Shown here: piece by piece, positions 1,214-17,350 of the stretch | Position numbering within the stretch: the stretch's first letter is position 1 | Layout: each line of letters begins with the position of its first letter | Source of the DNA: a virus | Reading direction: 5' to 3' (one strand) | Length of the DNA: 39,798 nucleotides | Virus record (IMG/VR): IMGVR_UViG_3300030117_007074 | Coordinates: 1 to 39,798 of that record | Notes under the pieces: generated by a model | Seen by the model: the letters and a program-made list of their open reading frames with translations, nothing else | What the model was told of the DNA's origin: nothing | The model's database searches: none | Program-made: the position numbers and the translations under genes

Positions 1214-3550
1214 ATGCCATCACGTAATGAATGGGTTGCAGAAGCCACTCGCCTGGGAATGCCAAACGCACGGCATAGGGGGCACCGGGAACTCTATTTG
1301 TGGATACAGAGAAACGCAGACGACGAGTTTCGGGATAAATGGGGAGACGTTGCGTCATTTGACGCCGGCCAGCAAAAAGGTCGAGTAGGTCCGACTCAAG
1401 CGCAGTTGCGTCAGGCCCGGGAGTTGGGCATCGAGACGCACGGCACGAATCAGCGAACGCTCCAGGAGCGCATCGATTCGGCAACGGCTCCTCCTGCCGA
1501 GGACCAGGTGCGTGCGGATTTCTTGCAGAGGATGTCTGAGGATCCTGCGTTGGCGCAGCACAGCGATTGGATGGCTCAGACCTTCGCAGACCCTGCCTCT
1601 CATTATGTCCTTGGGCAGGCTATGGGTGCGGGGACGCCGGAGCAGCAAGTTGCAGCCATGCGCCAAATGATGGAACAGTCAGGGCTGACGTTTGGGGCAA
1701 CCGATCCTCCCGTTGGTCCTGGTGGTTCTGGTGAGGACCAGGCGCGTGCGGATTTCTTGCAGAGGATGTCTGAGGATCCTGCGTTGGCGCAGCATAGCGA
1801 TTGGATGGCTAAGACCTTCAAAGACCCTGCCTCTCATTTTATCCTTGGGCAGGCTATGGGTGCGGGGACGCCGGAGCAGCAAGTTGCAGCCATGCGCCAA
1901 ATGATGGAACAGTCAGGACTGACGTTTGGTCCCCCTCCTGGTCCTCCTCCTGGTCCTCCTCCTGATCCTCCTCCTGATCCTCCTCCTGGTCCCCCTCCTG
2001 GTGATCCTGGAAAGAGGGTCGACTTGGGCGATGGCCGTTCCGGAATTATTGATGCTAGTGGCAGCATTGTGCCTGGCTCTGTGACCGGGAGTCCTTTTGA
2101 GACGGTCTCGCCAAACATAGACACTAACATGTTTGATCCACGAGGTGGTGGAGAAGGTGCGCCAGTACCCCTGCCCGTAGGCACTGACGGACAAGTCGTG
2201 ACGCCGGGAGGTGACACTCTCCCCAATGAAGCGTTCGTGGATTCTTCGGGTCAGCTTACGACCAGTCCGACATCGCCCGTGACACCGTTTGAAGATACCG
2301 GCTCCCGGTTTCCTGCTCCCGCTTCTGCTCCTGCTTCTGGAAATGTTTTAACGAAACCAACTTCAGAACCGCGGGATGCTTCTGGATTCTATAACCCTCC
2401 TGACTTTGCGGATAGCCCTCCAGGTGAAGATGATGAGTATGGTGATTCGCGCAGCGGCGGAGGTGGGCGTAGCGATGGAGGGCCGGGGTGGAGCCATATC
2501 TTTGGCGATACGGATCCGTATAACCCTCCAGACCTGTTGGGACTGTATTCAAAGCCTGGTGAAGGCGAAGAGAATACTTGGTCAATCACTCAGGAAGGCG
2601 TTCGGAACCTACTGTCGCAACTTGGTAAGGAGGGTCTGGATCCCAAGGATGCTGCCGAGCTGACTAACGCTATCCTGACGATGTCGAATCTGCCTTCAGC
2701 ACAATTTCATGCGGGAATGTTCCCGCAAGTCTTTGGACAAGTGGCAGACATTGCCAACATGGCGAAGGACTATGCGACCACGCCTTACAATATGCCCAAT
2801 GCTCCGAATCTGGATCCTGAAGGGTTTTACAAAGGAGGCCAGGCTGGTGCTGACCTGATGAATTATGCGATTGATCAGATCCAGCGAACACAGGGACCGC
2901 AGGACAACCTCGCCAACCTGGCTAAGGAGCAGGCTGAATATCTGGAGACGCGCTCCGGTGACCTGGTGAACCCGTATCGTGCCGAGCTGGACAAGCAGTA
3001 TGAAGAGCGACGCAATGAGTTGGAGAGCAGTCTTGCCGCTCGGGGGATGTTGGGGTCTACGCAGGCCGATGAGGCGTTGAATCGCTTAGAGGAATCGCGT
3101 GGCCGTGCCGCTTCTGATGCTGACCTGCGATTCTACAAGGGCATCGGTCAGGAGCGTCGTGCTGATGTCGGCGTTACCGCAGACTTGCTGGATCGCCTGT
3201 ATGGTCAGCGGATGGGCGGGGCACAGTTTGGCCTGCAGCAGTCGGGAGCTCTTATGGGTGGTGCCGGCCAGGCCGAGAGCATGGACCTGGCGCGTCGCCA
3301 GGGTCAGCTAGGTCGCCAGCAGTTAGGGTTCCAGAACCAGCAGGGCAATGTGATGATGGGTGAGGACATCGCCAAAGGCAGGCTGGGGATGATGCAGCAA
3401 CCAGTAGGTATGGGCCTGTCAGCCTTGTCCGGCGTTAACGTCGCCCCACCAACGGTCTCGCCTGTGCAGGGTCCACGCCAGGGACCGAGTGGCTGGGAGA
3501 TAGCGGGGAGTATTGTGGGCGGCGGATTGCCGAATCTGTGGGGACAATGA
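1214..3550 (+). CDS. Large virion-associated protein with duplicated module
   Basis: A 778-residue protein. ATG 1214 is preceded by GGAG at 1202-1205, eight bases away. Residues 1-90 look like a SAP-type small helical domain (ATRLGMPN..., ARELGIETHG). Residues about 96-160 and 174-238 are near-identical copies containing FLQRMSEDPALAQHSDWMA. Then come a proline-rich linker of GPPPGPPP and DPPP repeats (about 240-265), a Ser/Gly/Pro-rich disordered middle, and a Gln/Ala/Gly-rich helical C-terminus (YEERRNELESSLAARGMLG...). The C-terminal style resembles internal or tail-associated virion proteins of podoviruses. Exact role unknown; stop overlaps the next start. Confidence 0.6.
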   Translation: MPSRNEWVAEATRLGMPNARHRGHRELYLWIQRNADDEFRDKWGDVASFDAGQQKGRVGPTQAQLRQARELGIETHGTNQRTLQERIDSATAPPAEDQVRADFLQRMSEDPALAQHSDWMAQTFADPASHYVLGQAMGAGTPEQQVAAMRQMMEQSGLTFGATDPPVGPGGSGEDQARADFLQRMSEDPALAQHSDWMAKTFKDPASHFILGQAMGAGTPEQQVAAMRQMMEQSGLTFGPPPGPPPGPPPDPPPDPPPGPPPGDPGKRVDLGDGRSGIIDASGSIVPGSVTGSPFETVSPNIDTNMFDPRGGGEGAPVPLPVGTDGQVVTPGGDTLPNEAFVDSSGQLTTSPTSPVTPFEDTGSRFPAPASAPASGNVLTKPTSEPRDASGFYNPPDFADSPPGEDDEYGDSRSGGGGRSDGGPGWSHIFGDTDPYNPPDLLGLYSKPGEGEENTWSITQEGVRNLLSQLGKEGLDPKDAAELTNAILTMSNLPSAQFHAGMFPQVFGQVADIANMAKDYATTPYNMPNAPNLDPEGFYKGGQAGADLMNYAIDQIQRTQGPQDNLANLAKEQAEYLETRSGDLVNPYRAELDKQYEERRNELESSLAARGMLGSTQADEALNRLEESRGRAASDADLRFYKGIGQERRADVGVTADLLDRLYGQRMGGAQFGLQQSGALMGGAGQAESMDLARRQGQLGRQQLGFQNQQGNVMMGEDIAKGRLGMMQQPVGMGLSALSGVNVAPPTVSPVQGPRQGPSGWEIAGSIVGGGLPNLWGQ
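1499..1929 (+). repeat. 197-bp in-frame direct duplication
   Basis: Bases 1499-1695 and 1733-1929 are nearly identical. The offset is 234 bp, exactly 78 codons, so the reading frame is kept and the encoded protein has two copies of a roughly 65-residue helical module. The few differences suggest a recent duplication. It directly precedes the proline-repeat linker. Confidence 0.9.
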
Positions 3551-5604
3551 TGATGAACAGATATAGAACTGGCGAAGACTTTCGCCGCTTGATGGAACAA
3601 AGGCGGATGGAGCAGCAGCTTGGTGCCGGTGGGCAAGGGCCGATATTTGAGGGCCCTCTTCCAGGTGCGCCACCAGAAGCAGTTCCGCCGCCAAATGTCC
3701 CGAGGCGCGTTTTAGGCATACCCCCCGAGGCCGAGTTGGAAGCGGCTACGATGTTTCCAGAGGGTGTTCAAGGTCCTGGTATCCCTGTGCCTCAATTTGA
3801 CCGAAACGGGGTTGATGTTGATGACGTAAATACAGGCCATGACTTTTCCCAGCCTTATGGTGGCGACCAGGCGTTCGATCCAGTTGCCTATCGCGTGCTT
3901 CAAGGTGGAAGAGAATTGGATTACCGCCTTGGGCTGAGAGGCGACAATGAACCCATTGCTAACAGACAAGAGCTGCCCGGGGTAGGCTCGTATGACATCG
4001 TTCGTGACCCCACACACCGGGACTTTTCTCACTATCCCTTTGGAGACGCTCCTGCGCCGGGATACGAGACGCCGATAGTCAACGATGCCGGTGAGGTTGA
4101 GAGATGGGAAACGAAAAAGCCCCCTGCGGCTCGCGAGACCATCCCGCGCCCAGTGCTCCCACAGGATGGAATGTTCGAGGATCAGCCTGATGTAGGTGAT
4201 GTTGGACCTGCTGCAGGCATTCAGGATGCTATAGCCCGAGCAGGCAGGGGGGTAGAAGACCAGGGCGAGTATGAGCCTACTCCCGAGGAAGTCGAACAGG
4301 TGTCAGCGGCAATGCCTACGGGCGAGAGTCGCTCCTGGCTGCAGAGGATGATGCCAGCCCTAAAGGTCGCTGGCCTCGCTGCCACGGGCATCGGCATGGC
4401 GAAGTCGCCGGAATTTCGGCGGGGAGTATTGAAGGGTTTTGGCAGCGAGTTGCAGCAGCGTCGTCAGTTTGATAGGCAGAGGCAGTTAGCGGCCTCGAAA
4501 CTTCGACCGCATAAGCCGATGGAGCTGAAGGACAACAAGCTCATCTACTACGACTCTGTCGGAAACATCCTGCGTATGCAAGACCTGGGCCCTGATGGTC
4601 CCAAGCTCCAGGATCGTATCGATCAATTCTCCGGCACGACGCAGTATAAAGACATTGGCAAGAAGCTCACCAACTTTGCCAAGCTACGGACAGCAGTAGA
4701 AGCGGACACGCCGGTTGGTGATGTAGCGACCATCTTCGCTTTCATCCAGGGGCTGGACAATACGGCAGTGCGTGAAGGCGAGCGCGACTTCCTCCTTGGA
4801 GCAGCGGGACTTGGGGAAAAGATTTCAGATTTCCTGGGTGGTCGTACTTGGATAAAAGGCCGTCAACTTCGGCCATCTCAGCTTAAAGGCATCCTTGAAA
4901 TTTCCCAACGATGGATGGACGAGGAAGTCAAGACGTTCCGAGGATTCCGAGACGGTCGCGTCGAGTCTTTGGGGCGCACCATTTCTGGACAGGACTGGAA
5001 CGAGCTCCTGGATGATCCGACAAGAGATTGGAAAATTCAGGATCGTCGCGAGGCACAGGAGCAGACGCCGACGGGCGCAGTTCAGCCCGGTGACGAGAGA
5101 ACGAATCCAGAAACGGGTGTTACAAAGCGATACCTGGGCAACCAAAAGTGGGAAACCGTTAAGCCTTCAGATGCTGGCGGACAGTCCGGTAACGTGCCGC
5201 AGAGAAACAATAATATGGGCAATTTGAAAAGAGGCGGCGTCGGTGATCAGTATGCGAGGCGAGATGCCAAGGGCAATGTGATGACCGACGGCGAGAGCCA
5301 CTTGATCTTCCCTGATGCAGAGGCCGGAAGGATGGCTCTTGAGCGGGACCTGGAGGCGAAGATCGGGGGCAACTCTTCTGCATCGAGGAGGATCCTCGGG
5401 CGCAATCCCAGAAATGTGGGCGAGCTCTCTCAGGTATATCTGGCTGGGGAATCTGAGGAAGGGAAGGCGGCGTGGAGAAATGGCGTGCGGTCTATCCTGG
5501 CTCAGGACCACGGTGTCGAGACTGACATCCTCACTAACATTCCGGTTGAAATCTTGGCGCAAGCTATAGCCAGGCAAGAAGGGTTCTTTGCGGGGCGGGG
5601 GTAA
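3547..5604 (+). CDS. Virion protein with C-terminal NN-GNL (muramidase-associated-like) domain
   Basis: A 685-residue protein. Three consecutive ATGs start at 3547; the first overlaps the upstream TGA (ATGA) and follows GGGGA. Residues 1-250 are Pro/Gly/Asp-rich and probably disordered. About 265-290 hold a hydrophobic helix (MMPALKVAGLAATGIGMA), followed by charged helices. The C-terminal 140 residues contain RNNNMGNLKRGG, LIFPDAEAGRMALERDL and ILAQAIARQEGFF. From memory this pattern occurs in phage virion proteins with peptidoglycan-interacting NNPGNLR domains, suggesting local wall opening during entry. That is an inference; no catalytic residues can be assigned. Confidence 0.55.
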   Translation: MMMNRYRTGEDFRRLMEQRRMEQQLGAGGQGPIFEGPLPGAPPEAVPPPNVPRRVLGIPPEAELEAATMFPEGVQGPGIPVPQFDRNGVDVDDVNTGHDFSQPYGGDQAFDPVAYRVLQGGRELDYRLGLRGDNEPIANRQELPGVGSYDIVRDPTHRDFSHYPFGDAPAPGYETPIVNDAGEVERWETKKPPAARETIPRPVLPQDGMFEDQPDVGDVGPAAGIQDAIARAGRGVEDQGEYEPTPEEVEQVSAAMPTGESRSWLQRMMPALKVAGLAATGIGMAKSPEFRRGVLKGFGSELQQRRQFDRQRQLAASKLRPHKPMELKDNKLIYYDSVGNILRMQDLGPDGPKLQDRIDQFSGTTQYKDIGKKLTNFAKLRTAVEADTPVGDVATIFAFIQGLDNTAVREGERDFLLGAAGLGEKISDFLGGRTWIKGRQLRPSQLKGILEISQRWMDEEVKTFRGFRDGRVESLGRTISGQDWNELLDDPTRDWKIQDRREAQEQTPTGAVQPGDERTNPETGVTKRYLGNQKWETVKPSDAGGQSGNVPQRNNNMGNLKRGGVGDQYARRDAKGNVMTDGESHLIFPDAEAGRMALERDLEAKIGGNSSASRRILGRNPRNVGELSQVYLAGESEEGKAAWRNGVRSILAQDHGVETDILTNIPVEILAQAIARQEGFFAGRG

Positions 5605-16114: not shown

Positions 16115-16306
16115 ATGACAGACGGTGAGAAAATAGCCAGGGCCAGAGAGGCCAAAGGGCTGAGCCTGCGTGATGCTGCAAAGCGACTCGGCATCTCCCG
16201 CCAATGTTGGCATCACTGGGAGTCGGGCTATCGCACTCCCACGCTGAAGACGGCGCATCGTATCGCTGATGCGTTGGACACGTCTCTCAGCGAGATGCTG
16301 AGATGA
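16115..16306 (+). CDS. XRE-family transcriptional regulator
   Basis: 63 residues from ATG 16115, a minimal HTH_3 domain: IARAREAKGLSLRDAAKRLGISRQCWHHWESGYRTPTLKTAHRIADAL. Length equals one DNA-binding domain with nothing else, typical of Cro-like phage regulators. The hairpin and direct repeats just upstream may be its own operator. The stop overlaps the next start (ATGA). Confidence 0.8.
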   Translation: MTDGEKIARAREAKGLSLRDAAKRLGISRQCWHHWESGYRTPTLKTAHRIADALDTSLSEMLR

Positions 16307-16524
16307 GTTACGACTCGTGGAAAGCGACAGACCCCGAGATAGAGCGAGCCGGGCGTGTCGAGGCTGCACTCGACCAGTACGAGGACCAGGTATGGCGTGA
16401 GGTGCTGCGCCTGGCCGAGCGTCGATTCTCGGAGGGGTATCGCGACGAGCTGCACGATCAGATGATCAACGACGTGTCGGTCGAGGATGCCGCTCAGGTT
16501 TTTCTGGAGAGCTTCGATGAGTGA
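16303..16524 (+). CDS. Hypothetical acidic protein (73 aa)
   Basis: A 73-residue, acidic and helical protein (VEAALDQYEDQVWREVLRLAERRFSEGY). ATGA overlap with the XRE gene and an 8-bp overlap with the methyltransferase suggest one coupled operon. No family recognised. Confidence 0.55.
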   Translation: MSYDSWKATDPEIERAGRVEAALDQYEDQVWREVLRLAERRFSEGYRDELHDQMINDVSVEDAAQVFLESFDE

Positions 16525-17350
16525 CGCACAAACGCCGCTGGTGACGTTCGGGTCGCTGTTTGCCGGCATCGGCGGGATCGACCTCGGCCTGGAGCGTGCG
16601 GGGATGACCTGTGCGTGGCAGGTCGAGATCGACCCGTGGTGCCGCAAGGTGCTGGCGAAACATTGGCCTGACGTAAGGAGATACGAAGATGTCAAAACAG
16701 TCGGAGGCGATACCCTGGAGCCAGTTGCACTTATTGCCGGTGGATTCCCATGTCAGGATGTCTCAGTCGCAGGGCAACGCGCAGGTATCCAAGACGGCAC
16801 CCGGTCAGGACTCTGGTCAGAGTTTCACCGAATCATTTGCGAACTACGACCCCGATACGTCTTCGTGGAGAACGTCCCAGGCTTGCTTACTAACGGGATG
16901 GGAAGAGTTCTCGGCGACCTGGCCGAAATCGGGTACGATGCGGAATGGGAGGTGCTATCGGCGGCAGATGTCGGCGCACCGCACCTCCGAAAAAGGGTCT
17001 TCATCGTGGCCGACGCCGACGACGCGGGACTGGAAACAGCCGGGAAAAAACGGGAGGTGGCGGGACGGGAAATTGCAACTGGACACGTTGGATCGGGCAG
17101 TTCAGCAGTGGCCGACACCGACAGTTCAGATGACACGCCCAGACATGAACAGACAGAATCGCCCGTCGTCGGGAGCCGACGACCTTGGATCGGTAATCAA
17201 GAAGCAAACTGGTGGACAACTGAACCCGACGTGGGTCGAGTGGCTAATGGGGTTCCCCAGCGGGTGGACCGACTTAAGGGCTTAGGCAACGCCGTCGTCC
17301 CGCAATGCGCGGAACAGATCGGACGTCGCATCATGGAGCAATTCGGGTAG
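16517..17350 (+). CDS. DNA cytosine-5 methyltransferase
   Basis: 277 residues from ATG 16517 (GGAG eight bases upstream); the open frame begins ten codons earlier. C5-methyltransferase motifs in order: I (FGSLFAGIGGIDLGLE), IV (GGFPCQDVSVAGQRAG with the catalytic Cys), VI (ENVPGLL), VIII-type RKRVFIVA and the C-terminal X region GLGNAVVPQ. It transfers a methyl group from AdoMet to cytosine C5, and probably protects phage DNA from host restriction; no partner endonuclease is visible. About 600 bp of it are also read in another frame (16689-17285). A hairpin overlaps its stop. Confidence 0.93.
   Translation: MSDAQTPLVTFGSLFAGIGGIDLGLERAGMTCAWQVEIDPWCRKVLAKHWPDVRRYEDVKTVGGDTLEPVALIAGGFPCQDVSVAGQRAGIQDGTRSGLWSEFHRIICELRPRYVFVENVPGLLTNGMGRVLGDLAEIGYDAEWEVLSAADVGAPHLRKRVFIVADADDAGLETAGKKREVAGREIATGHVGSGSSAVADTDSSDDTPRHEQTESPVVGSRRPWIGNQEANWWTTEPDVGRVANGVPQRVDRLKGLGNAVVPQCAEQIGRRIMEQFG
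16689..17285 (+). CDS. 198-aa protein nested in the methyltransferase gene (different frame)
   Basis: Wholly inside the methyltransferase, in the frame one base on. ATG 16689 follows TAAGGAG with an eight-base spacer, an excellent ribosome site. The protein looks real: DPDTSSWRTSQACLLTGW, WPKSGTMRNGRCYRR, SSWPTPTTRDWKQPG and, near the end, LNPTWVEWLMGFPSGWTDL. From memory, phage proteins with SFAxxDPDTSSWRTSQ, SGTMRNG, WPTPT and WLMGFPxGWT motifs are common near C5 methyltransferase genes. Here those motifs fall opposite methyltransferase conserved segments (DPDTSSWRTSQ over RYVFVENVP, WLMGFP over VGRVANGVP), so it appears overprinted. Function unknown; not proven expressed. Confidence 0.6.
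   Translation: MSKQSEAIPWSQLHLLPVDSHVRMSQSQGNAQVSKTAPGQDSGQSFTESFANYDPDTSSWRTSQACLLTGWEEFSATWPKSGTMRNGRCYRRQMSAHRTSEKGSSSWPTPTTRDWKQPGKNGRWRDGKLQLDTLDRAVQQWPTPTVQMTRPDMNRQNRPSSGADDLGSVIKKQTGGQLNPTWVEWLMGFPSGWTDLRA

Follow-up and report, generated by a model that had tools for sequence, protein, structure and literature searches.

Reportedly, as described by Lee, Kam and Shaw in 1995, the small polypeptide of M.EcoHK31I is encoded in another frame within the gene of the large chain, and both polypeptides are needed for activity. This enzyme, directed at YGGCCR, is a two-polypeptide C5-methyltransferase whose large chain contains motifs I-VIII and X and whose small chain contains motif IX, and its predicted target-recognition domain was placed in the larger subunit (PMC3404938). 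M.AquI (CYCGRG) is also a split C5-methyltransferase formed by two chains, with both motif IX and motif X in the smaller one (PMC3404938). A further precedent for hidden reading frames is an HNH endonuclease with a ShiLan domain, which a mycobacteriophage methylase gene contains out of frame (PMC11855218).

In the present study we have analysed a 39.8 kb virus record over a stretch of 39,798 nucleotides (the window), in which integrase, terminase and portal genes are present, indicating a temperate tailed phage. Two overlapping genes on the plus strand are the subject of this work. The first, alpha (16517..17350), encodes the 277-aa catalytic chain of a C5-cytosine methyltransferase with motifs I-VIII and X and without motif IX; its probable start is the ATG at 16517, which overlaps the stop of an upstream ORF (16303-16524). 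The second, beta (16689..17285, 198 aa), lies wholly within alpha in the +1 frame and comprises an N-terminal core, two WPTP motifs, a variable region and motif IX. A Shine-Dalgarno sequence, AAGGAG (16675..16680), precedes its ATG at 16689 by 8 nt. An earlier note on this DNA had reported a 198-aa ORF nested in another frame of a C5 methyltransferase, and its coordinates, frame and the Shine-Dalgarno spacing of 8 bases were all confirmed. The neighbours of the pair in the window encode HTH, HNH, SSB-like and unknown proteins, and no recognised type II endonuclease adjoins it.

The distribution of motifs resembles that of M.EcoHK31I, as alpha holds motifs I-VIII and X and beta holds motif IX. 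The likeness extends to the gene layout that M.EcoHK31I is said to have, with a small chain in an alternative frame inside the gene of the large chain; here beta overlaps alpha in the +1 frame in 221 of 221 loci from the window, viral contigs and bacterial genome contigs. M.EcoHK31I is however part of a restriction-modification system with a known target, whereas the window pair stands among phage genes. Furthermore, the recognition domain of M.EcoHK31I is predicted in the large chain, whereas alpha is predicted to be disordered at that position. With M.AquI the window shares the presence of two chains and the location of motif IX in the smaller one; motif X is found in the small chain of M.AquI but in alpha in the window, so the window pair is not of the M.AquI type. 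Such a division, with motifs IX and X in the small chain, does occur in the EagleEye-type group of mycobacteriophages and in locus L035. The ShiLan-domain HNH endonuclease is similar in being a second ORF out of frame within a phage methylase gene, but it is a mobile insertion in another relative frame, and the +1 beta ORF is not mentioned in the part of that account considered here (PMC11855218). The PHROG families of alpha (363) and of beta (1008) are both annotated as DNA methyltransferase with no mention of overlap or subunits, a name under which the two ORFs also stand in several phage records.

Alpha is an evident C5-methyltransferase by sequence and by predicted structure. It matches Pfam DNA_methylase (PF00145, E=1.8e-48) and phrog_363 (5.6e-87), and carries the AdoMet-binding and catalytic motifs I, IV (PCQ), VI (ENV), VIII and X together with the fold of the class. 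The catalytic cysteine lies in the Pro-Cys-Gln of motif IV (16748..16756), followed by the Glu-Asn-Val of motif VI (16868..16876), the motif VIII region GAPHLRKRVFIVA (16973..17011) and motif X, GNAVVP (17285..17302), whose first base is also the final base of the stop codon of beta. Alignment with solved C5-methyltransferases, including M.HhaI, covers motifs I-VIII only. The AlphaFold model, built with 68 sequences, shows a confident catalytic domain that superimposes on M.HhaI with a VIA-align Z of about 24 over 199 of 276 residues, and a disordered stretch at residues about 170-245 (17030..17254, pLDDT under 50), which is the position of the small target-recognition domain in a normal C5-methyltransferase. 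Nothing resembling motif IX was found in alpha between motifs VIII and X. Thus, neither a folded target-recognition domain nor motif IX, which ordinary enzymes have together in a single chain, was found in alpha, and motif IX is located in the +1 frame instead.

The analysis of beta demonstrates that it carries the motif IX absent from alpha. Its invariant C-terminal end, LNPTWVEWLMGFPSGWT (17220..17270), corresponds to motif IX (LTPREAARLQxFPDDY) in both pattern and spacing and sits in the DNA directly upstream of motif X, as in ordinary C5-methyltransferase genes. When this end was used as a profile, its best alignment within a 499-column profile of canonical methyltransferases was motif IX (P=0.0045), a match that is short and weak on its own. 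The full-length beta profile gave no meaningful alignment with a 17-member canonical profile by hhalign; only the 30 C-terminal columns aligned, to motif IX. The AlphaFold model of beta alone is poor (pLDDT 60.7, pTM 0.28) and gave no match in a Foldseek search of the PDB, and matches to kelch and glycolipid-transfer proteins, obtained in sequence and profile searches of PDB sequences, were weak and judged to be due to chance. Beta matches phrog_1008 at 3.9e-34, as do 73 of 73 beta relatives. We consider that beta probably holds the target-recognition domain.

The conserved N-terminal core of beta, DPDTSSWRTSQ...WPKSGTMRNG (16848..16949), is encoded across alpha motif VI. The earlier note had placed the beta motifs exactly opposite conserved methyltransferase segments, and this is correct for DPDTSSWRTSQ, the conserved beta segment facing the motif VI region; SGTMRNG, however, faces alpha GYDAEW, and WPTPT faces alpha VADADD just downstream of GAPHLRKRVFIVA. 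The first WPTP motif (17007..17018) is overprinted on alpha VADAD and the second (17109..17120) on alpha VADTD, that is, a single DNA motif repeated at both positions is read as WPTP in one frame and as VADAD or VADTD in the other. In actinophage relatives the PTP units occur in many tandem copies, which perhaps form a repeat-built recognition region. In Arthrobacter phage Chipper1996 (L351, locus 1798-3895) a beta-like ORF of 425 aa with many LLPTP repeats, annotated as hypothetical, overlaps the preceding methylase ORF only slightly.

The obligate association of alpha and beta, the presence in beta of the motif missing from alpha and the shifts of motifs IX and X between the two frames point to two halves of one enzyme. 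Thus, we propose, with a probability of about 0.88, that alpha and beta together make up a single heterodimeric C5-cytosine DNA methyltransferase of a temperate phage, each being one subunit. In this mechanism alpha would form the catalytic domain, which binds AdoMet and holds the PCQ nucleophile, ENV and motif X, and beta would be translated in the +1 frame from a separate ribosome-binding site within the alpha mRNA, contributing motif IX and probably the target-recognition domain. The two separate chains made from one mRNA would then assemble, the enzyme working only once assembled, and the phage would mark its own DNA with a solitary methyltransferase, probably evading restriction. Complex formation, enzymatic activity, the placing of the target-recognition domain in beta and the anti-restriction role of the pair are inferred. 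Against this proposal stand the poorly modelled fold of beta and its lack of a PDB match, which leave its recognition fold putative, the weakness of the direct motif IX match, the prediction of the recognition domain in the larger subunit of M.EcoHK31I, and the beta core that persists in some phages whose alpha frame has every motif. The suggestion of the earlier note that the nested protein could modulate the methyltransferase was right in linking the two proteins but too weak, since beta carries motif IX and is most likely the DNA-recognition half.

Regarding the biological role, phage genes (integrases, repressors and helicase loaders) predominate around 80 bacterial homologues, and no restriction endonuclease was found among the top neighbour families listed for these 80 loci. 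These genes can therefore be considered mostly solitary phage methyltransferases, which are best explained as protecting phage DNA from restriction.

The location of the C-terminal motifs changes among the relatives, and it is these that settle what beta is. Frames were assigned by profiles, as counts based on regular expressions had left many loci unclassified, and the ambiguous locus L146 as well as 14 canonical, truncated or unscored loci are excluded from the totals. Motif IX lies in the beta frame and motif X in the alpha frame in 300 loci, both motifs lie in the beta frame in 18 loci and both lie in the alpha frame in 5 phage loci. Motif IX is thus found in the beta frame 318 times versus 5 times in the alpha frame, and in no locus in both frames at once. 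L146, a bacterial locus, contains two adjacent overlapping alpha/beta-like pairs, possibly a tandem duplication. Mycobacteriophage EagleEye and its relatives have a beta frame that extends through motifs IX and X (EWMLGWPEGWV...RMVGNGVC), and an alpha chain ending after motif VIII. The annotated start of EagleEye gp88 (L333, NC_023564.1, locus 2190-2855), at locus position 2421, seems too late, as from about 2235 onwards the open beta frame matches the conserved core and overlaps gp89; the same methylase pair is listed for EagleEye-related mycobacteriophages. In phages Batiatus, McProf, Spartoi, JKSyngboy and Rabbitrun the alpha frame contains both motif IX and motif X, and beta profiles match this region of the single chain, the lowest values being 4e-46 with the profile of the EagleEye group and 1e-6 with that of the window family.

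In a tree computed from the catalytic part, the overprinted family forms one clade separate from the canonical enzymes (100/99), with 8 changes of motif frame inside the overprinted clade, the minimum for four groups being 3. The N-terminal core of beta is kept in the +1 frame above the echo of alpha (z 4.4-7) in Batiatus, McProf, Darolandstone, JKSyngboy and Rabbitrun (L350, L352, L353, L356 and L357), whose methyltransferases are single chains that have every motif in one frame, while canonical controls in the same test gave z of about zero. The persistence of this core where the alpha frame holds all motifs suggests that beta does something beyond supplying motif IX, or that these phages still make two chains. 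We lean, on slightly better than even odds, to the view that one large phage-borne clade of C5-methyltransferases always overprints a +1 subunit and that the recognition region and motifs IX and X have switched frame several times, leading to M.EcoHK31I-like, M.AquI-like and nearly single-chain forms, the beta core having a conserved job besides motif IX.

Since beta is invariably read in +1 and relatives differ in the frame that holds motifs IX and X, alpha and beta could also be joined as one polypeptide through programmed ribosomal frameshifting and not arise by separate initiation. In two loci, L071 and L080, no ATG, GTG or TTG was found shortly upstream of the conserved beta core, for which an unusual start, a start within the core or frameshifting may be envisaged. 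In the window, however, beta has a good Shine-Dalgarno sequence and an ATG, and starts led by a Shine-Dalgarno sequence are strongly enriched in the family, as they occur in 202 of 228 relatives versus 126 expected; for an ATG at the beta start the corresponding values are 153 of 228 versus 65 expected from synonymous shuffles. A fused product made by frameshifting is consequently improbable, and we retain the proposal of two separately initiated subunits.

Beta might instead be an independent protein, for instance an anti-restriction or anti-defence factor that is merely encoded inside a methyltransferase gene. It does have its own Shine-Dalgarno sequence and start, and its N-terminal core is conserved even in those phages whose alpha frame has all the motifs. 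Nevertheless, in the loci examined beta was never seen apart from an alpha of one family. Among loci collected by alpha alone, beta was found in 80 of 80, in contrast with 0 of 17 canonical C5-methyltransferases from the same bacterial genomes, and scans seeded with beta, considering the best 80 loci of each, revealed no stand-alone beta away from the alpha family. Moreover, the motif missing from alpha is exactly the one that beta carries, and relatives encode motifs IX and X now in one of the two frames, now in the other. An independent beta is therefore very improbable, and the anti-defence product that the earlier note had offered as an alternative was rejected, since beta overlaps a methyltransferase of one family in every locus examined. 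The heterodimer remains our preferred explanation.

That beta is a real second gene, selected in its own right, is clear from controls in which the amino acids of alpha were fixed and its synonymous codons shuffled. These controls are required because an echo in the +1 frame arises from the conservation of alpha alone, so that similarity in the nested frame has to be judged against synonymous shuffles; the mean echo amounts to about 80 bits to the beta profile. The real window sequence scored 249.5 bits, versus at most 124 in 1,000 synonymous shuffles, and in a repeat of the test 262.5 bits versus at most 146 (z=12.8). The nested frame was open in 35 of 20,000 shuffles permuting alpha's own synonymous codons and in 0 of 20,000 that used synonymous codons uniformly. 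The third-base entropy at conserved four-fold alpha codons is 1.74 bits upstream of beta, 1.09 inside it and 1.63 after it, and approaches zero across most of motif IX (e.g. GGT in 166 of 166 and GCT in 156 of 156). Across 410 related gene pairs, differences at codon positions 1, 2 and 3 of alpha amount to 0.120, 0.044 and 0.335 before beta, 0.262, 0.137 and 0.117 over beta motif IX, and 0.149, 0.090 and 0.412 after beta. The fastest position over motif IX is thus the first of alpha, which is the wobble position of beta, indicating that beta is the main constrained frame there. Stops or a lack of constraint in the nested frame of homologues were looked for, and beta survived, its frame being open and the third bases constrained; with the +1 overlap present in all 221 loci and selection acting on both frames, the earlier note was correct in that two conserved proteins share one DNA segment. 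Although the similarity is partly an echo, as the mean score of the shuffles indicates, the idea that beta is only a frame echo, an ORF open through codon bias whose matches are all frame artefacts of the methyltransferase, is refuted by the shuffle controls, by the third bases frozen in alpha where beta needs them and by the codon-position pattern of substitution, and retains practically no probability.

A full-text search of the open-licence literature found no paper on overprinted phage methyltransferases. The earlier note had taken this overprinting to be undescribed, which appears to hold for its spread through phages but not for the layout as such, as the two-polypeptide M.EcoHK31I is a precedent (PMC3404938) and phage records already name both ORFs. 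The spread of the pair through phages and the repeated frame shifting of its C-terminal motifs appear to be undescribed in the literature searched. The two-chain layout itself is already known from M.EcoHK31I, and its distribution here is broader and more variable than we found described.

The overprinted pair, with its known bacterial precedent in M.EcoHK31I, is present here in hundreds of phages. An overlapping gene pair of about 200 aa in tailed phages, conserved across great divergence, is in this way explained, the overlap reflecting two halves of an enzyme. As phage annotation usually keeps one ORF or calls both DNA methyltransferase, the recognition subunit is missed, and alpha cloned without beta should be inactive. 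Naturally split enzymes of such a kind have been used for building targeted methyltransferases (PMC3439449). The family also represents a natural series for studying how protein segments switch reading frame in evolution.
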